64,000 bases of DNA, taken from an uncultured Lachnospiraceae bacterium. GTDB taxonomy: Bacteria; Bacillota; Clostridia; Lachnospirales; Lachnospiraceae. The notes under the pieces were generated by a model, which saw only the letters and a program-made list of their open reading frames with translations, searched no databases and had not been told where the DNA came from. The stretch is taken from contig CACZBK010000008.1 of NCBI GenBank assembly GCA_902779395.1, positions 62,001-126,000 on the forward strand, given 5' to 3'. Below are positions 29,484 through 45,338 of this stretch, in pieces (positions within the stretch are counted from its first letter, which is position 1; each line of letters starts with the position of its first letter). The translations under genes and the position numbers were made by a program.

Positions 29484-31298
29484 TCAGACACCGCCTCCAA
29501 GCAGGGGATTTGCATTACCGCCACCCAACACTGGATTTCCGCCTCCAAGCATGGGATTAGCATTTGCTGCAGGCGTATCTGTTATATATGGAATAGCGCC
29601 ATTTGTAGGTGCATAAGGATTTCCCATACCGGGGCCGGCTGCAAAAGCAGGAACACCATTCTGCATTCCGGGCTGAGGTGCATATGCCGGAGCAGTAGGC
29701 TGCGCATAAGCCGTTGTAGCGGGAGATACAGGTATCTGATAAGATAATCCTCCCGGGCCGGCTCCCTGTGTAGCAGCGTAAGGCGGTATGGAAGACTGTG
29801 CCCCGCCGCCGGCTCCTGCCGCAACATAAGCTGCCTGCTGGATCTGATAAGCAGTAGCCTGACCGAATGATCCACGCTCAGGCGCGATATAATTCTCAAA
29901 ATCTATCTCACCATGTAATCCGCCTGCCGGCTGACGTGTACCATTCTTAAGCTCTCTTTCGGCAGCACGCAGATTAGGTGATTCAAAAATAGATGCATTT
30001 GCTTTTTTCTGTTCCTCTTCAGCGCGAAGTTTTTCCAGAATAGTAGGTCCGCTTACTTCGCCTGAAAGCGCTCCTCCACCGCTCACTCCGCAATTTAATG
30101 CTGCAGATTCAAACAGACCGCTTACCGCAGGTGCCGGCTGGGATGCATATGATGACTGATATGCGGCTGCAGGCTGTGCAGACTGAACCTGTCTGGCTGC
30201 CTGATACTCACGGTGAACAGGTGATGCCTGCTGATAAGGTACTGCAGGCTGCGCATAAGGCGCTGCAGGCTGCGCGTAAGGCGCTGCAGGCTGAGCGTAA
30301 GGTGCTGCAGGCTGTGCGTAAGGTGCTGCAGGCTGTGCGTAAGGTGCTGCAGGCTGTGCATAAGGTGCTGCAGGTGCTGGTGACGCAGGTGCTGCAGGCC
30401 TTTGATACAAAAGTGCTTCAGGCGGAACATCTCCGTTAGGCGTATATCCGACAGAAGCTGCTGACTGGGCAGATGCCGCAACAGGAACTGCAGGAACTAC
30501 AGGTGACGCAGGTGCTGCAGGTATTGCTGCAACAGGTGCCGCAACCGGTGCCGCAGGTGCTGCAGGAGTCACCGGAGCCGCCACCGGAACAGCAGTTACA
30601 GGTACTGCCGGTACCGGAGCTGCCGCTGCAGGGGCTTCATAAGCAGGCGCAGCAGGAGCCTCATAAGCCGGTGTTTCAGGAGCTGCCGGTGCTTCATAAG
30701 AAGCAGGCTGAACATCTTCTATATGGGTATTTGAATGATTTGCTTTATAATTAGGATCATATACAGGTCCCTGAGACATAACTCTGGGCTTATATGCAGG
30801 CCTGAAAGGTGTTGTTTCCTTAGGAAACAGACTTGCAGGATCCACCGAAGAGACTCCGTTCTTTACCTCTTCAACAACCGCAGATTCATCGTATGAATAT
30901 GCTGCCGGTTCCTGATAAGCCGGTACAGGTGCGGGAGCAGGAGCAGGAGTTTCATATGCAGGTACCGGTGCCGCAGGTGCCTCATAAACCGGCGCCGCTT
31001 CCTGGTATGCAGGCGCAGGTGTCTCATATGCCGCTGCAATAGATGGCGTCTCGGTAGTCTCTGCCACAGGCTTATCCGGTGCAGGGATCGCAGGCTTTAA
31101 AAACTCAAGCTCAGGTATCGCGTCAGTACCCGCGGAGGTCTTACTGTATACACTCCCGAAGGATATCGACCCGCTTACAGAGCTACCCTTCTTTTTCATT
31201 TCCTTAACATATTTTTTTATGTTGAATTTACATCCCGGACATAGCTTTGAACTGTCATCCACGAAGCGGCTGCACTGAGGGCAGGTGATGTTTGCCAT
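29484..31298 (-). CDS. zinc-ribbon protein with long Pro/Ala-rich repeat region
   Basis: 604 residues. An N-terminal zinc ribbon (C6, C9, C20, C23 in CPQC and CPGC) is followed by about 430 residues dominated by Pro, Ala, Tyr, Gln and Glu, including EAPAAP repeats and six tandem PYAQPAA units, and then a Gly/Asn-rich end with LLGGG-type motifs. No membrane span is visible. Such architecture suggests an intrinsically disordered scaffold. AGGAGG precedes the ATG. It is first in the transcript carrying ispF, cysS, mrnC and rlmB. Confidence 0.75.
   Translation of the reverse strand: MANITCPQCSRFVDDSSKLCPGCKFNIKKYVKEMKKKGSSVSGSISFGSVYSKTSAGTDAIPELEFLKPAIPAPDKPVAETTETPSIAAAYETPAPAYQEAAPVYEAPAAPVPAYETPAPAPAPVPAYQEPAAYSYDESAVVEEVKNGVSSVDPASLFPKETTPFRPAYKPRVMSQGPVYDPNYKANHSNTHIEDVQPASYEAPAAPETPAYEAPAAPAYEAPAAAAPVPAVPVTAVPVAAPVTPAAPAAPVAAPVAAIPAAPASPVVPAVPVAASAQSAASVGYTPNGDVPPEALLYQRPAAPASPAPAAPYAQPAAPYAQPAAPYAQPAAPYAQPAAPYAQPAAPYAQPAVPYQQASPVHREYQAARQVQSAQPAAAYQSSYASQPAPAVSGLFESAALNCGVSGGGALSGEVSGPTILEKLRAEEEQKKANASIFESPNLRAAERELKNGTRQPAGGLHGEIDFENYIAPERGSFGQATAYQIQQAAYVAAGAGGGAQSSIPPYAATQGAGPGGLSYQIPVSPATTAYAQPTAPAYAPQPGMQNGVPAFAAGPGMGNPYAPTNGAIPYITDTPAANANPMLGGGNPVLGGGNANPLLGGGV
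30240..30372. repeat. tandem 21-bp repeat inside the zinc-ribbon gene
   Basis: About six copies of a 21-bp unit of the type GGCTGYGCRTAAGGYGCTGCA (shown in ambiguity code within 20-21 bases) encoding PYAQPAA. Third-position changes between copies show that the protein repeat is kept while codons vary. Confidence 0.85.
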
Positions 31299-33731: not shown

Positions 33732-34595
33732 TCAGTCTTTCCGTTCTTCATTCCTGTTCCCATAATATACATCCTTACCGTTAACCCCCGGCAGCAGATA
33801 ATCTATCAGCTTCATTACATCATCATCTCTTCTGCATATGACGACCTCAGTATCTTCCGGATATATAGAAGCCGCCTGTTTTACGGAAAAAGTCATCATA
33901 TTAAGCAGATCCCAGCGAGCAGTACTTTCGGTAGATGTGAATACTTCTACTTTCAGCCTCCCTGATGCACACATATGCACCAGCAAAAAACCGCTTACGC
34001 GATCATCCGTTTCCACATAGCTTGATACCTGCTGTTCAAACCAGCTCATCGGTATTGTACCCAGGTCCTCCATCAATGCCCTTTTGCTTCTGTAGATGCA
34101 GTCCATCACTCCGCGCCGGAACGGACGTACCATCAGACTGCCAAGTTCCCTGACGTAAGAAGGGACTTTTTTTCTTTTTGCAAACGGCAGTTTCAGAAGG
34201 TCTCCCAGAGTAGTCACTATTACCCTTCCTTCTCCCTTATTTATCTCATAACCCGATCTTTCAAGCAGATCTACCGGAAGATGTTCATCTCCGGCAGGCA
34301 GTTCAAAAAAACTCCTGCATACACCGTCTTCTTCAAAAAGATAAGAACACCTGTCTATCAGTTCCTCACCCGCCTTATCCGAAGAAGCATACAGAGCTTC
34401 GATCCTGGCCTCTGTGTCCTTATCATCATCTTCCAGATGAAGAAGTTCCCATACAGCGGCACAGTCAGCTTTTTCTCCCGTAGATGACAGAACAAATCCG
34501 CGGTAAAATTCGCGCCCTATGTTTTCGGCACCATCGGGGCCTACTATATCCGCATATAATTCCAGATTATCTTCAGACAGTTCGATAACTTCCAT
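33732..34595 (-). CDS. GNAT-fold-like protein linked to partner-switching operon
   Basis: 287 residues, cytosolic. Its second half (DDRVSGFLLVHMCASGRLKVE and PEDTEVVICRRDDDVMKLIDYLLPG) lines up with the last half of the 405-residue acetyltransferase at 39922-41139 (ELNPAGLLLAHKRRSGDISTE, QDDLLCISVESDEDAYVLDEYFP), so both contain the same acyl-CoA-N-acyltransferase-like module. The first half lacks a clear acetyl-CoA motif. AAGGAGAG precedes the ATG, 37 bp after the HATPase gene. Its function is unknown; position suggests a target or input of the switch. Confidence 0.65.
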   Translation of the reverse strand: MEVIELSEDNLELYADIVGPDGAENIGREFYRGFVLSSTGEKADCAAVWELLHLEDDDKDTEARIEALYASSDKAGEELIDRCSYLFEEDGVCRSFFELPAGDEHLPVDLLERSGYEINKGEGRVIVTTLGDLLKLPFAKRKKVPSYVRELGSLMVRPFRRGVMDCIYRSKRALMEDLGTIPMSWFEQQVSSYVETDDRVSGFLLVHMCASGRLKVEVFTSTESTARWDLLNMMTFSVKQAASIYPEDTEVVICRRDDDVMKLIDYLLPGVNGKDVYYGNRNEERKD

Positions 34596-34631
34596 TTATC
34601 TCTCCTTATTTTGGTCAACAGCCTTTAAACA

Positions 34632-35066
34632 TCATGATAATCTCATCCTGAAACGCAGGATATTCTTCCCTTCTTCATAGCTGTACCTGACATCTTCGGC
34701 TACCTGACGCAGAAGAAAAATGCCCAGGCCTCCTATCTGCCGTTCTTCCGATGAAAGCGTGATATCCGGTTCGGGGACCGACAAAGGATCAAAACGTTTT
34801 CCTGTATCAGCAAAGCAGATATCCACAGATTCACCATTTTCAGCGGATCTTATCGATACCTCCGCTTCCCCGCTCTTATCTTCATAAGCATAACTTGCAA
34901 TATTAACGAATATCTCTTCCACTGCAAGCTCTGTATTTAACAGGACCATGTCATCCGCTCCCGCCTTACACATATAATCCCGCACAAACGACTGCACATC
35001 AGGCAGATTATCGATAAGAGCAGCAACCCTGATCCTTTCCTCTTCCGTGATCACCGGATCTGTCAA
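34632..35066 (-). CDS. anti-sigma-type serine/threonine kinase (RsbW/SpoIIAB-like HATPase)
   Basis: 144 residues. HATPase_c_2 domain with N box ELAVEEIFVNIASYAY (Glu and Asn both kept), G1 box CFADTGKRFDPLS and G2 box GGLGIFLLRQVAEDVRYSYEEGKNIL. In partner switching this kinase phosphorylates the STAS protein and binds the effector. The start appears to be TTG at 35066, overlapping the previous stop as TTGA, with AGGAAAGG upstream. No sigma factor is encoded nearby, so its partner may be another protein of this operon. Confidence 0.85.
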   Translation of the reverse strand: MTDPVITEEERIRVAALIDNLPDVQSFVRDYMCKAGADDMVLLNTELAVEEIFVNIASYAYEDKSGEAEVSIRSAENGESVDICFADTGKRFDPLSVPEPDITLSSEERQIGGLGIFLLRQVAEDVRYSYEEGKNILRFRMRLS

Positions 35067-35698
35067 CCAGCCTTTCCTGTTTTTTTAACAATAGTTATCT
35101 CTACTATATCTCCGCGCACTCCTACACGGACATCATCAGCGATATTGGCTACAATGGATTTTTCCAGTTCATCCCAGGCTTCTACAGCCTTTTTTTGTTT
35201 TTTCTCCTTTTCCACCATACTTTTATACTGAAGCAGCGACCATTCAAAATCCATGGGATTTATCGCCCCGTCTTCCCGCACACCAAGATTACCGTACATA
35301 ACAGTTTCGCCGTCAAATTCATTCTGCAGGCCGTCTATGCTTTCCGGGTCATTAAGCGCGTTTACGACTATATTCCGTATCATCTCCATGATACCCACAC
35401 TGCTCTCATTCTTTCCGCCGGATGAAAGGGCGATCAGTTTCTTTTTTTTGGTCCGGTCCATATAAGCATCCGCTCTCAGACATATACGGTACTCACCGTC
35501 TCCGCTCTCGATCCAGAATTTTCCTTCAAATCCTCCGGTTATCCCCCGTACCATACCAAGCATCTCTTCACTCAAAAGCCTGAGATACAGCCCTTCTTCA
35601 GGATCAATATGCTCATATTCCGCAAAACGTTCAGCTTCTTCAAGCGCTTTTTCTATTCCGGCCCCTTCACTGTATACCATTATCTTATCTGTGATCAT
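35063..35698 (-). CDS. degenerate HATPase-like protein of the partner-switching operon
   Basis: 211 residues. Near residue 38 it reads YLRLLSEEMLGMVRGITGGF, which resembles the first helix of an HATPase_c_2 domain, but the Asn that holds Mg-ATP is not evident and the G1 box is not recognisable. A later GGKNESSVGIMEMIRNIVVNAL may be the remnant of the G2 region. The C-terminal 60 residues are charged with a Lys-rich helix. It may be a non-catalytic partner or decoy for the STAS protein. It overlaps the following kinase gene by four bases. Confidence 0.6.
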   Translation of the reverse strand: MITDKIMVYSEGAGIEKALEEAERFAEYEHIDPEEGLYLRLLSEEMLGMVRGITGGFEGKFWIESGDGEYRICLRADAYMDRTKKKKLIALSSGGKNESSVGIMEMIRNIVVNALNDPESIDGLQNEFDGETVMYGNLGVREDGAINPMDFEWSLLQYKSMVEKEKKQKKAVEAWDELEKSIVANIADDVRVGVRGDIVEITIVKKTGKAG

Positions 35699-35713
35699 TA
35701 TCCCCTCCTGTTG

Positions 35714-35989
35714 TCAGACTATAGTAAGGATCTGTGAAAATCCGGTAATTTCCATAACTTTATTTACCATCTCGCCGGCATTTTTGATTACAAGCTTCCC
35801 ACCGTTTTTTTTGCACTCTTTATCCATTGCAAGGATAGTACGAAGACCTACGGATGAGATATAGACCGTATCCTCCATATCCAGGACCAGATCAAATATC
35901 CCCCTGGATGCGATTTCTTTAAGGTCCTCCGAAAAAGCCGTATTTGTCCCGATGTCTATCTTCTCCGGGGTTCTGTAGATTTCACTCAT
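35714..35989 (-). CDS. anti-sigma factor antagonist (STAS domain)
   Basis: 91 residues, one STAS domain. The phosphorylatable Ser lies in the conserved YISSVGLRTIL segment (S46 by alignment with SpoIIAA/RsbV). It would be phosphorylated by the HATPase kinase downstream and dephosphorylated by the PP2C phosphatase upstream. A good GGAGAAAG site precedes the ATG, 33 bp after the phosphatase gene. Confidence 0.93.
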   Translation of the reverse strand: MSEIYRTPEKIDIGTNTAFSEDLKEIASRGIFDLVLDMEDTVYISSVGLRTILAMDKECKKNGGKLVIKNAGEMVNKVMEITGFSQILTIV

Positions 35990-36021
35990 AATCTTTCTCC
36001 TTTATATATTATTTCGCGGGT

Positions 36022-37581
36022 TTAACCCCCGATGTATTCCAGGCATAGCATAGTCAGATCATCTGACTGTTCTGCACCTTCCGTAAAAACAGCGATAGCA
36101 TTATCCACTTCTCCGATAAGCTTATCGGGATCCAGCTGACCGCAGCTCTTCAATACCTCCAGCAGACGTTCTTCTCCGAAAAGTTCGGACCTGTCATTCA
36201 TCGCTTCTGTTACTCCGTCAGTATAAACCAACAGCTTATCCCCTTTATTCAGCTTAAATCCATGTTCCGTAAAAGGAATATCTTCCATAACCGCTACAGG
36301 CGGTGAATGTTTATATTCTACCAGCAGGGCTTCTCCGTTTGCAGATATCAGTCCCGGATGTTCATGTCCGGCATTAGCCGCGATCCCTTCTCCCGTCTTA
36401 ATATTCAACACAGCAAGCCACACCGTTATAAACATTCCGATATCCCCGCGCTCAAGGAGCTGACGGTTTATCTGGCTGAGACATTGTGCCGGCGAAGCAC
36501 CTGCCTGCATACTGTTCTTGATGATCGATTTTGCAACCATCATCAATAACGACGCAGGGACACCTTTCCCGGACACATCAGCCATCACAAGGCCAAGATG
36601 ATCTTTATCTACAAGGAAGAAATCATAAAAATCTCCACCTACTTCCTTAGCCGGTCTCATTGAGGCATAGATCTCAAATTCACCGTGTTCCGGAAAAGCA
36701 GGAAATTCATCGGGAAGCATACGCTTCTGTATTGCCGCCGCAACCTGCATATCCCTCGAGGCCGCTGCAGCCTCCCTGCCCTTAGAGACGTTGACAACAC
36801 AGTACATAAGCAGCATAACCGCCATAAGCACCGGATAAGCCAAAGACAGACCGAATATCATCATCGTCATCACGCTCACCGCAAAAGGCGTGATCAGATA
36901 TAATACCATAGCTATCAGCTGATAAAATCTGAGCTTTCTGCGCTGCAGCTTCATCAGCCACAGACACAGCGCTATCATAACAAAACCATATATCTGATGG
37001 ATCGGATAAAGCGCATTCCTTCCGTATTCACCTTCGGCATTCACAGTAAAATACTGTCCGGCAAAAAGGTTTATGATACACAGGGCTATACATATGATCA
37101 TCCCAGCAAGCACAGTTTTATCAAGCTTTGCCCTTATCTTTTCCTCGGGCTTAAGCAGCTCGGCGATATAATGCCAGAAGAAAAAACATGACACGGGCAT
37201 ACATATATAATATATGGTATTGTCAATAATATTTGCAGCTCTGAAATCCGGCAATCCGTTCAACAGCCAGGCAACAGCATCGGTAAACAGAGCCAGGATC
37301 ACTACATTCAACAGATACTGATAATACCTGCTGCTGTCAGCCCCACGAGAAACATCTATGATACAGCAGATATAAAGCACGTATCCCGTAACCATCCCCG
37401 ACAGATCGGCACTTATATTGATCAGGTATACCGGTTTAATATTTCCGGCACCCCTTATCATTAAGAATGCTATCACAAATACGATAAGCAAAATACATAC
37501 AAAGCTGTCGGTTATTATCCTTCCGGCGATCTTTTCATTACGAAGGGAGCTGTTTGATTTTTTTCCGTTTTCTGCTGCCAA
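36022..37581 (-). CDS. membrane PP2C phosphatase (SpoIIE/RsbU type)
   Basis: 519 residues. Eight or so transmembrane spans in residues 20-265, a short helical linker (AAAASRDMQVAAAIQKRMLP) and a PPM/PP2C domain to the end with the metal-binding acidic residues in EVGGDFYDFF, LVMADVSGKGVPASLLM, LLVYTDGVTEAMN and GAEQSDDLTMLCLE. It would dephosphorylate the STAS antagonist and thus release the switch on a membrane or envelope signal. The start seems to be TTG at 37581, six bases after the stop of the calpain-like gene; the next in-frame ATG lies inside the first span. Confidence 0.92.
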   Translation of the reverse strand: MAAENGKKSNSSLRNEKIAGRIITDSFVCILLIVFVIAFLMIRGAGNIKPVYLINISADLSGMVTGYVLYICCIIDVSRGADSSRYYQYLLNVVILALFTDAVAWLLNGLPDFRAANIIDNTIYYICMPVSCFFFWHYIAELLKPEEKIRAKLDKTVLAGMIICIALCIINLFAGQYFTVNAEGEYGRNALYPIHQIYGFVMIALCLWLMKLQRRKLRFYQLIAMVLYLITPFAVSVMTMMIFGLSLAYPVLMAVMLLMYCVVNVSKGREAAAASRDMQVAAAIQKRMLPDEFPAFPEHGEFEIYASMRPAKEVGGDFYDFFLVDKDHLGLVMADVSGKGVPASLLMMVAKSIIKNSMQAGASPAQCLSQINRQLLERGDIGMFITVWLAVLNIKTGEGIAANAGHEHPGLISANGEALLVEYKHSPPVAVMEDIPFTEHGFKLNKGDKLLVYTDGVTEAMNDRSELFGEERLLEVLKSCGQLDPDKLIGEVDNAIAVFTEGAEQSDDLTMLCLEYIGG

Positions 37582-37586
37582 TGTGC

Positions 37587-39929
37587 TTATGCCTCATCCC
37601 CGCTGATGTTCACGACAGAAAAACATATTTTGAATATGCCAAACGGCACATCAACAGTTTCCTGCTTCCTGATATCCCTTATACGAAGTGTTCTCTGACC
37701 GGCGGTCTTTTCACCTTCTCCGTATACGACAAATTCATGATTCTGCTCAAGATCCACAGGGAATATCACGCTGTCTTTTTTACGATTATACTTAAGGCTG
37801 CCTCCGTTTGTACATGTGGTTGCCGTTATACTCTTACCGGCCTCAGAATACGCCAGTATCTGACCTATAACTTCATCTCCCGTTACGTGCAGGACCTGCA
37901 TAGACGTTCCGTCTTTCAGATAATCTGTATCAGCCCCCGGAAGATCCCTTGTACCAAGATGCAAACCATCTCTCCCAAACAGAAGTCTGGCTGCAAGTTC
38001 CTGACTTCCCGAATGGATATCATTTCTGGAAAGAGATCTGTCGGCAATACCTGCATTTCTCCAGTCCTTCTTTTCCTTCTTGGGATCATAACGGAAAGCT
38101 GCACCACCTTCAGTATTTTTCAGAAGTACACAGGCCGCTTTTTCTACCAGATCTACCCACATCGGTCTGTTAACATCGGAAGATTTGGTCTTCTTTACCC
38201 TTATATTCTGTGGATGACCCTTTTCATCATAGAGCCTTACTATAGCCATCTTTTCATCTGCCGGATCATCTTTTATGAGCTTTTCTAAAATATAAGCCGG
38301 ATCACGCAGGGCAAGCGCCGCCAGAGCCGCAATAAAATAAGAATCATTTATCTTTTTGTCCTGCAGTACTGCTTCGGCCTTAATATCATCATGCGGATAA
38401 AACAATGAATACTTCTTTGAACCCGGCATCTCATAAAACCGCTCTTTAAACATATTATCTGATGCATCTATCACATAATCCGGCTCAATAATATCACCCA
38501 TACGCGCTACCATAACATGCGCCCGGTTCTGTTCTATTTTTTCTTTCGCCCTTAAATATGCCTGATCTATCCGCTTTTCCATCGCTTCAAGATCCGCCAG
38601 GATGTATCTGCCGTGTATCTCTTTAACCTTTTTGATCTGCTGAAGTTTCTGATCCTGTGCTGAAAGCTTTTTATCTACAGCTTTCTTAAGTTCCTCCATC
38701 AGCGCCTTTTCTTCCAGGCCGGCCGCTTTTTCAGCCTCTTCTTTCTTTTTCTGCTCTGCTTTTTTCTTTTCCTCTTCCTCTTTTTTCTTCTGTTTTGTCT
38801 TTTTCTTCTCTTCTTCCTCTTTTTTCTTCTGTTCTGCCTTTTTCTTCTCTTCTTCCTCTTTTTTCTTCTGCTCTGTCTTTTTCTTCTCTTCTTCCTCTTT
38901 TTTCTTCTGTTCTGTCTTTTTCTTCTCTTCTTCCTCTTTTTTCTTCTGTTCTGCTTTTTTCTTTTCCTCTTCCTCTTTTCTTTTTTTATCCTCTTCAGCC
39001 TTCTTTTTCTCGGCTTTCTTCCTGTCTTCCTCCTGCTTCTGTATCATCTGAAGCTTGATGGCAGTATCATTTTTATCAGACGTTATACGACTGTCTTCTT
39101 TCTTTTTGACCTGTTCAGTACTGTTAGTTTTTTCCTGTTTTTCCTCTTCCTGATCCGTTTTTTTCTTTTTAACAACTTCTATAACTTCAGGTTCTTTAAC
39201 AGTTTTTTTATGTTTCTTTCTCTTAGGCACCTCAAGATACTTCTCATCAGCCGCTTCCCTGTTAACCATCCAGTAGGGAATGGTTATCGTCGTAAAAGGA
39301 CGGCGTCGGGATAACCCTACCGTATATGTGATCAGGCCGGGATTATCCGCCATGATATTGTCTTCCCCGAATTCCTCATCATATATGGCATTTCTTTCAA
39401 ATCGTATCGATTCACCGATATTTTCTTTATCATCAAGCAGTTTTTCCGCCAGCATACGGCGCGCCTCATTCTTAAGGTCCTCTACCTCCTCAAGTCTTTT
39501 TGCTCCGGTTTCGCCCTTTAAAAAAGTAAACCTGAAGCGGGAATAAGCCTTACATGCTTCTATGATATTCTTAAGATCTTCCGGATCTTCTTTTCCTTTA
39601 TCCTTATTTTTGTAATAACGTGCCAGAGCTTCGCGCACCATCGGCATGCGCCCTTTCTCGCCCTCTATCTTTTTTGCAAATTTTCTGTGAAACCCGATAA
39701 ACACAGCTTCATCAGGTATGTCTCCTTCAAGTACTTTTACATTATCTTCCAGCTCCAGCTGGGAAAACCCATCATCCGTAGCATCATAAACCTCTTTCTT
39801 TTTGGATCTGTCCAGACTGAGATCACTCTTTAAGCGCACGATCTCTTCGGGCTTTTCTATTTCAAGAGTCCGCTTCTGCTCTATATGGATAGACGCACTT
39901 CTCTTCTTTTCTTTTTCAACATCACACAT
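37587..39929 (-). CDS. coiled-coil protein with calpain-like C-terminal domain
   Basis: 780 residues, no signal peptide or span. Residues 1-230 form an unrecognised domain, 240-430 is a highly charged coiled coil with a 13-residue tandem repeat, and about 490-775 resembles the calpain (C2) cysteine-peptidase fold: KINDSYFIAALAAL at the position of the GDCWLLAALASL nucleophile motif, MWVDLVEKAACVLL for the LW..LLEKAYAK helix, NHEFVVYG for the catalytic His strand (H731) and LRIRDIRK for the Asn/Asp strand (D752). The nucleophile position is Ser530 instead of Cys. The gene overlaps its upstream neighbour by eight bases and is followed at six bases by the phosphatase. Confidence 0.7.
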   Translation of the reverse strand: MCDVEKEKKRSASIHIEQKRTLEIEKPEEIVRLKSDLSLDRSKKKEVYDATDDGFSQLELEDNVKVLEGDIPDEAVFIGFHRKFAKKIEGEKGRMPMVREALARYYKNKDKGKEDPEDLKNIIEACKAYSRFRFTFLKGETGAKRLEEVEDLKNEARRMLAEKLLDDKENIGESIRFERNAIYDEEFGEDNIMADNPGLITYTVGLSRRRPFTTITIPYWMVNREAADEKYLEVPKRKKHKKTVKEPEVIEVVKKKKTDQEEEKQEKTNSTEQVKKKEDSRITSDKNDTAIKLQMIQKQEEDRKKAEKKKAEEDKKRKEEEEKKKAEQKKKEEEEKKKTEQKKKEEEEKKKTEQKKKEEEEKKKAEQKKKEEEEKKKTKQKKKEEEEKKKAEQKKKEEAEKAAGLEEKALMEELKKAVDKKLSAQDQKLQQIKKVKEIHGRYILADLEAMEKRIDQAYLRAKEKIEQNRAHVMVARMGDIIEPDYVIDASDNMFKERFYEMPGSKKYSLFYPHDDIKAEAVLQDKKINDSYFIAALAALALRDPAYILEKLIKDDPADEKMAIVRLYDEKGHPQNIRVKKTKSSDVNRPMWVDLVEKAACVLLKNTEGGAAFRYDPKKEKKDWRNAGIADRSLSRNDIHSGSQELAARLLFGRDGLHLGTRDLPGADTDYLKDGTSMQVLHVTGDEVIGQILAYSEAGKSITATTCTNGGSLKYNRKKDSVIFPVDLEQNHEFVVYGEGEKTAGQRTLRIRDIRKQETVDVPFGIFKICFSVVNISGDEA
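38718..38951. repeat. tandem 39-bp repeat in the calpain-like gene
   Basis: Six units encoding EQKKKEEEEKKKT/A variants (residues 327-404). The DNA is almost pure purine on the coding strand and the copies are near identical, so slippage-driven length variation is expected. Confidence 0.85.
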
Positions 39930-41139
39930 CCGCTCTTACCTCCGGCTCCTGAAGAATTGCGCCCAGTATATAATTCCCCTGTTGAACAGGAAAATATTCA
40001 TCAAGCACATATGCATCCTCATCACTTTCAACACTGATACATAACAGATCATCCTGGGGAGATGTACGTGACGCTTTCAGTACAAAACTGTAAAGCAATA
40101 ATTCCGCATCGTCTTCTGCTTCAGGCATACAATACAGAAACTCCGTACTTATATCTCCGGACCTGCGTTTATGGGCAAGCAAAAGGCCTGCCGGATTCAG
40201 CTCATCACCGGTAAAACAGCTGAGTTTTAAGTCAATGTAACTTTTGGGAAGCGTATCAGAAGCAATATACCCGCTGTATTCGGTGACTGCCAGAAATCTT
40301 TTTATCAGCGATTGCGCCTTTTCCTCTTCCAGTTCCGAAAGAAATACCACTTTATCGCTAAACCGGTCTGCTATCCCATGAGTATCTATATCACCGATCC
40401 TGCATACAAAATCCGTCTCGATCGCAGGTGTAAAAGTAAAACGCCAATTATCCAGCATCATACCAATGCTTTCAAACTGATCTCCGGGATGAAAATCAAG
40501 GGTGATCGCAGAAACCTTTTTGTCTATAGCCACATTAATGATCTCAGATAAGAGAACGTCAGCACATCCGCGTCTTCTGTGATCGGGATGGATATAAAGC
40601 CAGACTATCCTGAGTATCGATTCATCCTCAGCTCCCTTATCGTAATAATATGCCAGAGCACCTACACCTGCTTTTCTTATCCCATGAAGCTGAAGTATTC
40701 CGATCGCACGGTATTTTCCCGCATCAACAGCTTCACGCACATCCTCATCCAGCACGGTCGAAAAGCATGCGGAATCAGCTTTATTGATCGCCGCTATAAG
40801 CTTTCCCGTACGTTTTTCATATTCTTTACGGTCTGAGCGGACTGCGCTTAATACTGCACTCCCTTTAGCGCTCAGCGGATGGAACCTTCCGGCTATACGG
40901 CACATGACCTTCTGCCTTTGCATAAACAGTTTTTCTGCCTCTTTAGGATAAAAAGCAGCTCCCCTGTCTTCCGAAAGAATGGTTTTCAGCTTTTCCTTAA
41001 GTTCTGAAGCCATCCTTAAGTCATTATTATAGTCCTGCATGATCTTATCCGGATCATCCAGACCCTGTCTTTCTTTTTCAAGTATATCTATCTTTTCCGG
41101 ATCAGGCTGGAAAAATTCTTTTTCTTTCCGGCTTAACAT
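39922..41139 (-). CDS. GNAT acetyltransferase with second GNAT-like module
   Basis: 405 residues. A helical N-terminal 120 residues lead into a GNAT domain with RIVWLYIHPDHRRRGCADVLL (motif A, R-R-x-G-x-A pyrophosphate loop). The C-terminal 180 residues form a second module of similar fold without that loop and related to the 33732-34595 protein. It is the first gene of the partner-switching operon and overlaps the calpain-like gene by eight bases. Substrate unknown; a protein lysine or N-terminus is possible. Confidence 0.75.
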   Translation of the reverse strand: MLSRKEKEFFQPDPEKIDILEKERQGLDDPDKIMQDYNNDLRMASELKEKLKTILSEDRGAAFYPKEAEKLFMQRQKVMCRIAGRFHPLSAKGSAVLSAVRSDRKEYEKRTGKLIAAINKADSACFSTVLDEDVREAVDAGKYRAIGILQLHGIRKAGVGALAYYYDKGAEDESILRIVWLYIHPDHRRRGCADVLLSEIINVAIDKKVSAITLDFHPGDQFESIGMMLDNWRFTFTPAIETDFVCRIGDIDTHGIADRFSDKVVFLSELEEEKAQSLIKRFLAVTEYSGYIASDTLPKSYIDLKLSCFTGDELNPAGLLLAHKRRSGDISTEFLYCMPEAEDDAELLLYSFVLKASRTSPQDDLLCISVESDEDAYVLDEYFPVQQGNYILGAILQEPEVRADV

Positions 41140-41186: not shown

Positions 41187-43310
41187 CTAAACAAGCTCAT
41201 ACTCAGCAGTAAGACACTTTTTACCCGTAAGCTCAACACTGCGAACATCCGGCTGCTGGGTACCGGCAAATATCTTATACCGCCCTTTTATCCTTATACG
41301 CTCTCCTTTTTCAGTAACGGTATCAAAAGCCGCAGCAGGTATCGTGATGCATAAGCGCTTTTCTTCTCCGGCATCCAGTTTCACATGTTCAAATGCACAA
41401 AGCGAATAAAACGGCTGATCATCTGCATTCATTCCGCAGGAAATTAGCGCTTCCCTGTTTGATATATATATCTGAACGATCTCATCCTGTATGCCCAGGC
41501 CTTTATTCTTTATAAGCAGCTGCGCCGAAACATCACCTGTCTCTCCGATCGCATGCAATTCAAGACCGGAACAATCCGTATCATTGTATGACAGGCCATA
41601 TCCGAAAGGATAAAGCGGCTTTTTATCGGTATATCTGTATGTACGTCCTTTCATTGAATAATCCGTGAATTCCGGAAGATCGCCCTCATAACTCATCGTT
41701 ACGGGCAGCTTTCCGGAAGGAGAAACCTTACCGAATAAAATATCTCCCAGTGCTTCTCCGCCGCACTCACCACTATACCAGCACTGAAGTATTGCAGAGC
41801 AGTCTTTCTCTTCTTCGGATACATCCATTGCACTTCCGGTGTTGAGTATAAGAACTATCGGTTTCCCGCTTTCCTTAAGCGCATTAAACAGCCGTCTTTG
41901 AGACTCCATCAGATAAAGGCTCTGCTTATCTCCGGCTGCAAATGCATTTCCCGCATCACCCTCTTCACCTTCTATGGATGAATCAAGACCAAGGCACAGT
42001 ATCACTGCATCCGAATGCTCCGCAACACTTAAAGCTTCGCTGATACGATCATCATTTTCCCCAAGCGGCTGCACTTTATCTTTAAACAGATGGCAGCCTT
42101 CCGAATACAATATGCGTACACCGCTGCCGGCAGCAGCACGTATACCATCCAGGTCAGTCACATAACGCGATGCCGTACCGTTATAATTGCCATTTAATAC
42201 CTCTATAGATGAAGCGGTAGGGCCGATAATACCGATAGTTTTTATCCCGGATCTGTCAAGCGGTAAGATCCCGTCATTCTTAAGCATCACCGCACTGCGG
42301 CAGGCAGCTTCATATGCCAGATGGCGGTTTGCATCAGTATCAACATCATTCAGTCCGAGTGAATCATATTCGCAGTCATCGGCAAACATCCCCAGTCTGA
42401 AACGGGTGGTAAATACCCTTACCGCAGCTTCCCGAATATCCTCTTCGCTTACCTTTTTATCCTGATATGCCTTATACAGTGTGGGATATACCCACCCGGC
42501 ATTAAGATTGCATCCTGCTTTCAGAGCTAAAGCAGCTGTCTCTTCCGCATTTTCAGTCACATGATGATTGGCATGGATGTCATTGAGCGCGCCGAAATCC
42601 GAAACGACATGTCCGTCAAACCCCCATTCCTCCCTCAGTTTTTTCTTAAGAAGATAATTGCTGGCACAGCAGGGTTCGGAATTGGTACGGTTATATGCTC
42701 CCATAACGCTCTCAACACCTGCTTCGCATACTGCAGCTTTAAACGCGGGAAGATAGGTTTCCTCAAGATCCTTTTCGCTTACTTTTGCGTCAAAAGAATG
42801 CCGCAGGGCTTCCGGCCCCGAATGTACTGCAAAATGTTTAGCACAGGCTGCAGTCTTTAAATACTTTCCTTCTCCCTGAAGTCCTTTTATAAAAGCCACT
42901 CCCAGTCTGGATGTAAGATAAGGATCTTCCCCGTAAGTCTCCTGTCCGCGCCCCCAGCGCTGATCCCTGAACAGATTGATATTGGGTGACCACAGAGTTA
43001 TTCCCTTATATATCCCTCTGTCACCGTGTTTACGGGCCTCATTATATTTTGCACGGGTTTCTGTAGCTATGACATCTGCGATCTTTTCAAGCAGTTCAGC
43101 ATCAAACATTGCCGCAAGACCTATAGCCTGCGGAAAAACCGTTGCCGTACCACTCCTGGCAGTACCGTGAAGGCCCTCATTCCAGTAATTATATGCCGGT
43201 ATGCCAAGCCTTTCGATCGCAGGAGAATTATACAAAAGCTGCGATGCACATTCCTCTACAGTCATTTTTCCGACAAGTTCTCTTGCTTCTTTTTTAAAGT
43301 CTCTCTTCAT
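41187..43310 (-). CDS. glycoside hydrolase family 3 (beta-xylosidase/beta-glucosidase type)
   Basis: 707 residues, no signal peptide, so intracellular. NYWNEGLHG at 41-49 and LWSPNINLFRDQRWGRGQETYGEDPYL from 107 are typical of the xylosidase branch of GH3; the nucleophile is D238 in GHVVSDFGAL. A C-terminal fibronectin-III-like domain holds PLYPFGYGLSYNDTDC. It probably cleaves xylo- or gluco-oligosaccharides after uptake. GGAGG precedes the ATG. The gene stands 47 bp upstream of the acetyltransferase operon with no clear terminator, so read-through is possible. Confidence 0.92.
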   Translation of the reverse strand: MKRDFKKEARELVGKMTVEECASQLLYNSPAIERLGIPAYNYWNEGLHGTARSGTATVFPQAIGLAAMFDAELLEKIADVIATETRAKYNEARKHGDRGIYKGITLWSPNINLFRDQRWGRGQETYGEDPYLTSRLGVAFIKGLQGEGKYLKTAACAKHFAVHSGPEALRHSFDAKVSEKDLEETYLPAFKAAVCEAGVESVMGAYNRTNSEPCCASNYLLKKKLREEWGFDGHVVSDFGALNDIHANHHVTENAEETAALALKAGCNLNAGWVYPTLYKAYQDKKVSEEDIREAAVRVFTTRFRLGMFADDCEYDSLGLNDVDTDANRHLAYEAACRSAVMLKNDGILPLDRSGIKTIGIIGPTASSIEVLNGNYNGTASRYVTDLDGIRAAAGSGVRILYSEGCHLFKDKVQPLGENDDRISEALSVAEHSDAVILCLGLDSSIEGEEGDAGNAFAAGDKQSLYLMESQRRLFNALKESGKPIVLILNTGSAMDVSEEEKDCSAILQCWYSGECGGEALGDILFGKVSPSGKLPVTMSYEGDLPEFTDYSMKGRTYRYTDKKPLYPFGYGLSYNDTDCSGLELHAIGETGDVSAQLLIKNKGLGIQDEIVQIYISNREALISCGMNADDQPFYSLCAFEHVKLDAGEEKRLCITIPAAAFDTVTEKGERIRIKGRYKIFAGTQQPDVRSVELTGKKCLTAEYELV

Positions 43311-43348: not shown

Positions 43349-45226
43349 TCAGACTTTCTTACCGTTATTTTGGATAAGAAATTCCAGGAAATTGTTTTCC
43401 GGGATCGGCTTTGAAAAATAAAACCCCTGTATATATTCAACTCCCATTTCTTTCATCATCATAACCTGCTCTTTGGTCTCTATTCCTTCCGATACTACAC
43501 TCAGATTCATTTTATGCACTATATCCGCCATACCGGTCAATACATATCTGGTCTTATCATTATCAAAAAAGCCCTGGGTAAAAGACTGGTCAAACTTGAT
43601 ATTGCTTATGGGCATATTGATGAAGTATTCAAGATTAGACCGCCCCGTTCCAAAATCGTCCAGAGAAAATGTAACCCCCATATTTATCAGCTTATCCATA
43701 TTCAACAGCATTACATCTCTGTTTCTTGCCGCCGCCGTTTCCGTTATCTCCAGATTTATCCATTCGGGTTTTATGTTATATTCTTCCATATACTTCGAAA
43801 CAAACGTAGCAGGATTTTCATAATCGAACTGAGCCGCAGATACATTTACCTCAACCTGCTCAAGTCCGTATTCCTGTGCTTTCTGTGAAGACAGAAAGCG
43901 GCATACCTTTTCAAAAACACGCATTCCCAACGGGATTATCTGTCCGGTCTCTTCCGCCACAGGAATGAAAAGTCCCGGCGGAACGATCTCTCCGTTTTCG
44001 CGTCTTATCCTGACAAGAGCTTCAGCAACATTAAAACAGGACTTTTTCACATTGTAAAACGGCTGATAGAAAACCTCCACTCTGTCATTCTTAAGCGCAT
44101 CATCTATCAGCTCTTTAATACTGTTCTGCTCTCTGAGCCTGTTTATCAGCTCTTTATCTGCGACTGTTATCTCCTGCTCGGTTTCCAGATATGTATGCAG
44201 AAAACGAAAGAACTCATCGGGTCCGCTCATTTCCATACTGTCAGGGATCAGAAGATAAGTTCCTTTAGCCGGAAGATCGTTTACCGCATCCTTTTGTCTC
44301 TTTATGTTCTTCGCCATTTCAAACATACGGTCTTTATCGTCATAAACGACACAGAAGGTATCATCATCTATGCGGAAAGCAGGCTCGGGACCAAGAGCTA
44401 TAAGCGCCCGGGAAGTACGTGTAACAGCATCCTGCTGCATATCAAACTCGACAAACGCAGTCAGATAATGGATCTTGGCAGTAAACATGGAAAAACGCCT
44501 GCCAAACTTATATCTGTCAAATACGTAAACAGACAGGGCGTTGGTCGTAAACAGCCCTGTAGCGGCATCGATATATTCGCTGGGGTTCTCCAGCTGTATA
44601 TAAAGAATGACCATTCCGAATGCAGATGCAAACCCGACCAGAAGGATCTGCGGAACAATAAACTGTATCAGCGCAGCCAGGAGCCATATCCCCTGCCATA
44701 AAAGCATGGCGGTAAGGCGTCTTCCGGGTATCACTTTTCTGTATGCTATGGTCGTTATTATCGTTGCTATGATAAAAACAGCACACAGGAAGTAAGCTGC
44801 GGTAGCTGAAAGTCCATGAGTATATACTATACGTCCGTCAAGTTCATACTTTAAAGGCATTACAAATACCAGTATCTCACCGGTAATAAATATGATATGA
44901 AAGATGATCTTTAAAGTTTTCGCCCATGTTTCTTTTCCCGGAAGCATACTGGTAGCAGCATACATATAACCGAAATACCCCTGCATTACAAGGATCATTA
45001 TATATACCTTACAGGTAAAAAGAGTCAACGCGGGACTGACTCCTTCGTTAACCGCTTTGTTTATCATTATTATAGAAAGGATATCAAAGATCAGACACGC
45101 AAAGCAGGCACTGATGGCCCTGAGAAAAAGCTTGCGGTTCATAAGATCAAGCTTTTTCTCACGCGAAAACATCACAAAGATAGTAAATATGATAAATAAG
45201 GCACAGCATTGAAGTTCGATATTCAT
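43349..45226 (-). CDS. membrane c-di-GMP phosphodiesterase (degenerate GGDEF + EAL)
   Basis: About 625 residues. Seven or eight transmembrane segments (to about 225), a GGDEF-like domain in which the signature reads DDDTF (so not a cyclase), and an EAL domain from about 375 with EALVRI, FSLDDFGTGRSNL, NIKFDQSF and VSEGIETKEQ. All metal and catalytic acids that I can align are kept, so it probably hydrolyses c-di-GMP. The ATG at 45226 has GGAGG five bases upstream; the in-frame ATG at 45238 does not. Confidence 0.9.
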   Translation of the reverse strand: MNIELQCCALFIIFTIFVMFSREKKLDLMNRKLFLRAISACFACLIFDILSIIMINKAVNEGVSPALTLFTCKVYIMILVMQGYFGYMYAATSMLPGKETWAKTLKIIFHIIFITGEILVFVMPLKYELDGRIVYTHGLSATAAYFLCAVFIIATIITTIAYRKVIPGRRLTAMLLWQGIWLLAALIQFIVPQILLVGFASAFGMVILYIQLENPSEYIDAATGLFTTNALSVYVFDRYKFGRRFSMFTAKIHYLTAFVEFDMQQDAVTRTSRALIALGPEPAFRIDDDTFCVVYDDKDRMFEMAKNIKRQKDAVNDLPAKGTYLLIPDSMEMSGPDEFFRFLHTYLETEQEITVADKELINRLREQNSIKELIDDALKNDRVEVFYQPFYNVKKSCFNVAEALVRIRRENGEIVPPGLFIPVAEETGQIIPLGMRVFEKVCRFLSSQKAQEYGLEQVEVNVSAAQFDYENPATFVSKYMEEYNIKPEWINLEITETAAARNRDVMLLNMDKLINMGVTFSLDDFGTGRSNLEYFINMPISNIKFDQSFTQGFFDNDKTRYVLTGMADIVHKMNLSVVSEGIETKEQVMMMKEMGVEYIQGFYFSKPIPENNFLEFLIQNNGKKV

Positions 45227-45338
45227 GAATGCCTCCATCCATGCATTTGCCGGTATTTCAAGTCCAGTATTATTTCTATATTGTCTTTTACGATAATGAT
45301 TATATCATGTTGAGCCGATCTGTGAAACCATAAATTAC

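Follow-up and report, generated by a model that had tools for sequence, protein, structure and literature searches.

Partner switches are known mainly for the control of sigma factors. The operon described here resembles the RsbU/RsbV/RsbW system of SigB and the SpoIIE/SpoIIAA/SpoIIAB system of SigF in that a PP2C phosphatase, a STAS protein with a conserved serine and a HATPase are encoded in one operon. Unlike these systems, it holds no sigma factor, encodes an additional protein of predicted RsbW fold (ORF5), and lies among effector and GNAT genes linked to a contractile injection system (CIS). It also differs from the SiaABCD system of Pseudomonas aeruginosa, because here ORF4 is a STAS protein, a second protein with a predicted HATPase fold is present, and no diguanylate cyclase is encoded in the operon.

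Cargo choice, loading and firing by the CIS of Gram-positive gut bacteria are, to our knowledge, largely open questions. The CIS genes of this genome share with extracellular CIS, as presented in the main texts of PMC8213781 and PMC11297309, the sheath, tube, gp25 and Pvc16_N set and large toxin-like proteins; tandem GNAT partners and a partner switch do not appear in the excerpted text of either paper, and the terms GNAT, acetyltransferase, anti-sigma and calpain are absent from both main texts. For the CIS of Streptomyces, function and firing need an accessory membrane protein, the bitopic CisA, according to the excerpted text of PMC12237407. Judged against that excerpt, ours is likewise a Gram-positive CIS with candidate accessory membrane proteins, but these candidates are PP2C and TM336 proteins with several hydrophobic segments. 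CIS, eCIS toxins, partner switches and SiaABCD are already known. The literature searched (open-licence PMC) yielded neither a tandem-GNAT family bound to CIS nor a partner switch with a link to CIS effectors.

The operon lies in the window (the whole stretch of DNA analysed, 64,000 nucleotides from an uncultured Lachnospiraceae bacterium) at 33732-41139, which is filled by seven minus-strand ORFs that either overlap, by 8 and 4 bases, or are separated by 5, 32, 15 and 36 bases. These calls agree with the sequence-only reading, which had described seven minus-strand genes running head to tail with overlaps or short gaps. The features are as follows.

ORF1, 39922..41139, minus strand, 405 aa: N-terminal extension of ~115 residues followed by a two-domain GNAT-like protein of ORF7's family
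ORF2, 37587..39929, minus strand, 780 aa: putative CIS effector with an N-terminal helical part, a Lys/Glu-rich repeat and a C-terminal calpain-like domain
ORF2 residues 116-157, 39459..39584, minus strand: short motif C..Y ... G..R...V
ORF2 residues 496-780, 37587..38444, minus strand: calpain-like domain, triad positions Ser/His/Asp in an alignment of nine domains
ORF3, 36022..37581, minus strand, 519 aa, TTG start: membrane PP2C phosphatase of SpoIIE/RsbU type (PF07228)
ORF4, 35714..35989, minus strand, 91 aa: STAS antagonist with ISSVGLR serine site S45/S46 (PF01740, TIGR00377)
ORF5, 35063..35698, minus strand, 211 aa: predicted degenerate RsbW/SpoIIAB-fold protein, likely pseudokinase
ORF6, 34632..35066, minus strand, 144 aa, TTG start: HATPase switch kinase with N, G1 and G2 boxes (PF13581)
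ORF7, 33732..34595, minus strand, 287 aa: tandem-GNAT-fold protein

Only 47 bases separate ORF1 from the end of a same-strand gene at 41187-43310, by eye a GH3 glycoside hydrolase, and transcription may therefore extend beyond the seven genes; promoter and terminator scans gave results near shuffle level. The second gene upstream of the operon, also on this strand, encodes an EAL protein (43349-45238) whose N-terminal part resembles TM336. Neither ORF2 nor ORF5 nor ORF7 matches a Pfam or NCBIfam family above cut-off.

The core of a partner switch is readily recognized. ORF3 matches PF07228 (3.4e-47, residues 326-515), ORF4 matches PF01740 (1.5e-16) and exceeds the TIGR00377 cut-off, and ORF6 matches PF13581 (3.2e-22) with N, G1 and G2 boxes that are intact by eye; the serine pair of ORF4, an ISS.G-type site, is kept in all nine rows printed. 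No SigB/F/G sigma factor passed the TIGR02980 cut-off in the own genome, which is 97% complete (best score 134.7 vs 234.35 bits), and the same cut-off was passed in 1 of 14 control genomes. The Pfam and NCBIfam matches and this genome-wide result bear out the earlier claim of a complete PP2C-STAS-HATPase switch without a sigma factor, and this combination makes a non-sigma output plausible. A switch that works as in classical Rsb systems, controlling a transcription factor or a sigma factor other than SigB/F/G encoded elsewhere, with the flanking genes as passengers, is in our view very unlikely: the PP2C, STAS and HATPase genes are the classical Rsb set and six sigma-like matches lie below the cut-off in the genome, but nothing exceeded the SigB/F/G cut-off and none of the seven operon proteins matched a regulator family in Pfam or NCBIfam. 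A GGDEF domain was likewise without a match among the seven.

The main connection of the operon, missed by the sequence-only reading, is CIS. ORF7 matches occur in 12 of 35 congeners, exactly the 12 that have a CIS sheath (PF04984; 12/12 vs 0/23, Fisher 1.2e-9, not corrected for relatedness), and a Pvc16-like gene was also seen in all 12 in the stretches read. A family sample of 299 genomes, about one per genus, contained Pvc16_N in 25 (24 over the cut-off) and the ORF7 profile in seven, all of them within the 25 (p 1.2e-8; 1.5e-7 without the own genome). Full-length matches were those in G000, G041, G180 and G277; when only these are counted, 4/4 are Pvc16_N-positive (p 3.9e-5; 4.6e-4 without the own genome). 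The remaining three (G006, G080 and G129) are weak or partial, as is the match of one sheath-bearing congener (G318; 7.8e-5, residues 94-270), and these four may be other members of the GNAT group. A class sample of 391 genomes had Pvc16_N in 15 and ORF7 in three, all Pvc16_N-positive; the sole new ORF7 genome there (G549) has both, and its four listed congeners have neither. Across the genus, family and class samples ORF7 was found only in CIS-bearing genomes, and we hold its association with CIS to be very probable. Since most Pvc16_N genomes are without ORF7 (18/25 in the family sample and 12/15 in the class sample), ORF7 belongs to one CIS branch. Searches of viral contigs with ORF7 found no relative, and a profile search of the PDB with its alignment gave no match at E up to 1. 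A stretch that resembles ORF7 but is interrupted by two stop codons (own genome, C11:79618-79968) indicates that the family also seems to leave pseudogenes.

The CIS structural genes are on a different contig (C17) from the operon (C8). They comprise gp25, Phage_base_V, T4-gp19 tube, sheath, DUF4280, Pvc16_N and two CIS_tube proteins over ~38 kb. Classical eCIS loci encode an AAA+ ATPase; here an AAA match at E up to 0.01 was found in 0 of the 19 CIS-region proteins scanned with Pfam, which represent part of a locus inside which the contig ends. PF13699 (DUF4157/eCIS_core) has no match in the own genome and is present in 5 of 35 congeners, one of which (G330) carries it without a sheath and without ORF7. 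Beside Pvc16 on C17 (L071/L072, ~17.9-34.9 kb) are long proteins of 1,743, 1,349, 1,306, 412 (MORN repeats) and 819 aa, for most of which other CIS congeners have relatives; several seem by eye to start with a signal-like or membrane segment, a possible sign of an envelope-anchored CIS. In two other genomes ORF7 lies together with CIS structural genes. G041, from another genus, has ORF7 within its CIS cluster, where one strand carries a 1,042-residue effector-like protein, a GNAT, ORF7 and two TM336-type genes, directly followed by CIS structural genes, and in G321 PP2C, HATPase, STAS, ORF5, ORF7, TM336, GNAT, effector-like and CIS structural genes share one strand of one contig over ~65 kb.

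ORF1 and ORF7 belong to the same GNAT family, and the fold of ORF7 is a tandem GNAT. ORF1 matches PF00583 (5e-5), and its comparison with ORF7 through disjoint profiles in hhalign gave a probability of 98.3% (E 1e-14); the earlier labels of GNAT for ORF1 and GNAT-like for ORF7 are thus upheld. The acetyl-CoA motif of GNAT proteins is R/Q-x-x-G-x-G/A. Reading ORF1 by eye we find RRRGCA, which we take to be a motif of this acetyl-CoA type, while an alignment of 15 ORF7-family sequences has, by eye, no conserved acetyl-CoA motif columns. ORF7 is apparently a non-catalytic member of the family.

Members of this family recur beside large proteins. In the own genome such pairs are found on C4, C8 (the window), C9, C11, C17, C23 and C27, and several of the GNAT-adjacent candidate effectors are without a recognized domain. 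The neighbors include calpain-like, Ntox11 and ABC1-kinase-like proteins; in G329 an ORF1 orthologue adjoins a calpain-like gene and a further GNAT follows a protein with Ntox11, a Pfam toxin domain. Two GNAT-adjoining proteins of the own genome, at L123:10433-16768 and L126:10955-16882, have ~2,000 residues each and ABC1-type atypical kinase domains. That the GNAT proteins serve as adaptors for CIS effectors is a tentative assignment, to which we give slightly less than even weight. Were they instead enzymes or immunity proteins, ORF1 would acetylate ORF2 for activation or silencing, or protect the producer, and the switch would regulate this modification. The RRRGCA motif kept in ORF1, the gene order of GNAT then effector, and the repeated flanking of toxin-like proteins by GNATs would agree with such a role; we nevertheless regard it as distinctly unlikely, given that no acetyl-CoA motif is conserved across the 15 ORF7-family sequences and that one family pairs with proteins as different as calpain-like, ABC1-kinase-like and Ntox11 proteins. 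Because of these very different partners, an adaptor fits better than dedicated immunity.

For ORF2 the role we favor is that of cargo: it is probably a CIS effector, and ORF1 and ORF2 look like a helper-effector pair. No direct Pfam match was obtained for ORF2, including DUF4157, and its one NCBIfam row (E 0.009) falls in a low-complexity part. Its calpain-like domain was recognized through relatives. An orthologue domain in G329 is 52% identical, and a paralogue in the own genome matches both ORF2 (9e-7) and PF00648 (Peptidase_C2; 3.7e-13). At the catalytic positions, the alignment of nine domains shows Ser for Cys, His kept and Asp for Asn, and ORF2 therefore departs from the Cys-His-Asn triad. 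A full-length query was discarded: all of its matches outside the own genome were weak and fell in the Lys/Glu-rich residues 249-464, and because these were misleading, only the C-terminal domain was used as query afterwards. A scan of genome contigs with ORF2 found no relative. Only 5 of the 35 congeners and 1 of the 299 genomes in the family sample gave a match to the domain, so ORF2 does not belong to the CIS core. Two observations place such genes near CIS. A 1,131-residue calpain-like gene lies behind a GNAT gene on C17 itself (63.9-67.3 kb), and eCIS_core/DUF4157 genes lie near calpain-like genes in G308 and G321, which is a pointer to CIS. We infer that ORF2 would be delivered by this system.

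Several further proteins accompany calpain-like genes. On C12 of the own genome (L010:1653-10415) a 230-residue protein precedes one of 2,920 residues, in which two calpain-like domains are accompanied by unassigned regions, and a similar pair starts in G329 (L026). Directly after each of two calpain-like proteins that have Cys-His-Asn lies a protein of 239-255 residues (L019:8156-8923 and L027:720-1439); these two are mutually similar by eye, the one scanned had no Pfam match, and a chaperone or immunity protein is possible.

ORF2 also carries a short motif shared with other candidate effectors. Starting from ORF2 residues 96-205, we ran six rounds of searches against 3,204 ORFs from loci of CIS genomes (the full set of 6,860 without the 3,655 controls and without ORF2 itself), which led to ~45 residues of the form C..Y ... 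G..R...V; the alignment leaves out a duplicate stretch (L121) and a second, short match in L124. The included rows were still changing at the stop, ranging between 9 and 27 with 25 in the last round. Since only the G329 orthologue fell below 0.01 in round 1, the profile was extended gradually and may have drifted on the way. The motif is common to ORF2 and 16 other ORFs, mostly large effector-like proteins, and in leave-one-out searches each of the 16 was recovered at ranks 2-4 among the 6,860 ORFs, with E between 1.4e-12 and 0.038. With filters off, E for ORF2 was 1.7e-6 when it was held out and 0.0099 when the G329 orthologue was left out as well. Under default filters the 3,655 control ORFs, ORF2 included, gave no motif match, ORF2 being found only with filters off. 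The motif occurs in 12 of 51 large GNAT-adjacent genes vs 3 of 226 others (p 1.4e-7), a comparison in which 14 of the 15 had trained the profile and ORF2 had not. The other 39 of the 51, a set that includes ordinary neighbors, are without it, among them the own-genome paralogues on C4 and C17.

We turn to whether the switch acts on this machinery. By model ORF5 is a degenerate RsbW-fold protein, likely a pseudokinase, in line with the earlier label of a degenerate HATPase-like protein; its profile-profile match to the HATPase family is weak (probability 9%), so that the fold rests on the model. A PDB profile search with the ORF5 alignment gave no match at E up to 1, and 42 ORF5 members had no common Pfam family beyond chance-like rows; the alignment leaves out L163, L185 and L201 (a stop inside the match coordinates) and 36 further loci of 80. 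The family is present in at least 542 candidate loci, of which the best 80 come from Lachnospiraceae, other Clostridia and Synergistales. Among these best 80, a STAS-like gene was recognized in 69 (it immediately precedes ORF5 in 55 and immediately follows it in another 7), GNAT-family matches were found only in L140, L141 and L143, and none matched 21 CIS reference proteins within the flanks read. ORF5-family genes in four Synergistales or Fretibacterium records (L190, L198, L200 and L206), far from Clostridia, reflect either horizontal spread or wrongly binned MAG contigs.

Within the genus, 18 of 35 congeners have ORF5, and all 12 with a CIS are among them (p 3e-5; for G308 just a fragment where the contig stops). 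In the other six, which have no CIS, it stands with one or more of the PP2C, STAS and HATPase genes, and no GNAT-family or effector gene was recognized nearby. This distribution does not support the earlier proposal as it stands, in which the switch simply acts on one of the proteins encoded with it in a single conserved set of genes, although a non-sigma output is plausible; likewise, of the gene order expected in relatives, sub-blocks are conserved and the full seven-gene set is not. Because the block is found in CIS-less congeners and ORF5 lies with a STAS-like gene in 69 of the 80 loci, ORF3-ORF6 appears to be a general module, coupled to ORF7 and effectors in those lineages that bear a CIS.

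The same distribution would agree with juxtaposition, in which the block is a general signaling module of rumen Clostridia beside which CIS effector and GNAT genes settled, ORF1, ORF2 and ORF7 belonging to the CIS and the switch not controlling it. The wide occurrence of ORF5 away from CIS reference genes in the best 80 of at least 542 loci agrees with it, as do the own-genome ORF7 copies on C27, C35 and C23, where no PP2C/STAS block was recognized in the stretches read. Three observations lead us to consider juxtaposition somewhat unlikely. First, the ORF5 block has ORF7 or GNAT-effector genes next to it in 7 of 12 CIS genomes vs 0 of 6 CIS-less ones (p 0.038; the contig of G308, one of the 12, breaks off there); on the other side, a divergent ORF5 is not beside ORF7 or effectors in four CIS genomes (G299, G303, G318 and G328). 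Second, the N-terminal membrane part of ORF3 is related to TM336, a frequent ORF7 neighbor elsewhere, although immediately next to only 10 of the 21 ORF7-family rows that lie outside the window. The TM336 profile aligns both with this membrane part and with the N-terminal part of the EAL protein encoded in the window. Third, in two further genera (G041, and G180, there together with a HATPase gene) PP2C genes again lie among the GNAT-effector genes. This evidence is circumstantial and favors control of CIS by the switch; as the switch is also present in six CIS-less congeners, we infer such control, and consider it possible, a little below an even balance. The C-terminal part of TM336 had no match to HATPase, STAS, ORF5, ORF7, GNAT or PP2C profiles and by eye looks like a degenerate GGDEF; eight TM336 proteins scanned had no Pfam family above cut-off.

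We therefore propose, as an evenly balanced judgement, that the operon is an outlying effector-and-control island of a CIS whose structural genes are on another contig, with the switch gating effector loading or firing. ORF2 would be a CIS effector or effector-derived protein, and ORF1 its two-domain GNAT-fold partner, probably an adaptor or chaperone and possibly a modifying enzyme; ORF7 would be a second, apparently non-catalytic family member specific to CIS genomes. ORF3 would dephosphorylate ORF4 and ORF6 would rephosphorylate it, with ORF5 as a second STAS-binding arm. Free ORF4 would then pull ORF6 or ORF5 off a target, presumably ORF7 or the GNAT-effector complex, such that an external signal could control effector loading or firing through the switch. 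A broader version is speculative and, taken as a whole, unlikely: tandem-GNAT-fold proteins would be an unrecognized class of CIS adaptors that bind effectors partly via the C..Y/G..R motif as a helical docking site, and a sigma-less switch, with a pseudokinase as one arm and with receptors that have a membrane domain in common, would gate loading or firing.

A GNAT-fold family seen only in CIS genomes among those tested offers a sequence handle for unknown effectors and makes the question of loading testable. If the proposal is true, a partner switch with a CIS as its output would be a new kind of target for this class of regulators, a phospho-switch acting directly on an injection machine. 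The window also encodes, at 29484-31298, an Ala/Pro-rich protein of 604 residues with an N-terminal Cys-pair (zinc-ribbon-like) segment, repeats and no Pfam match, which lies near dacA also in G309, G314 and G329.
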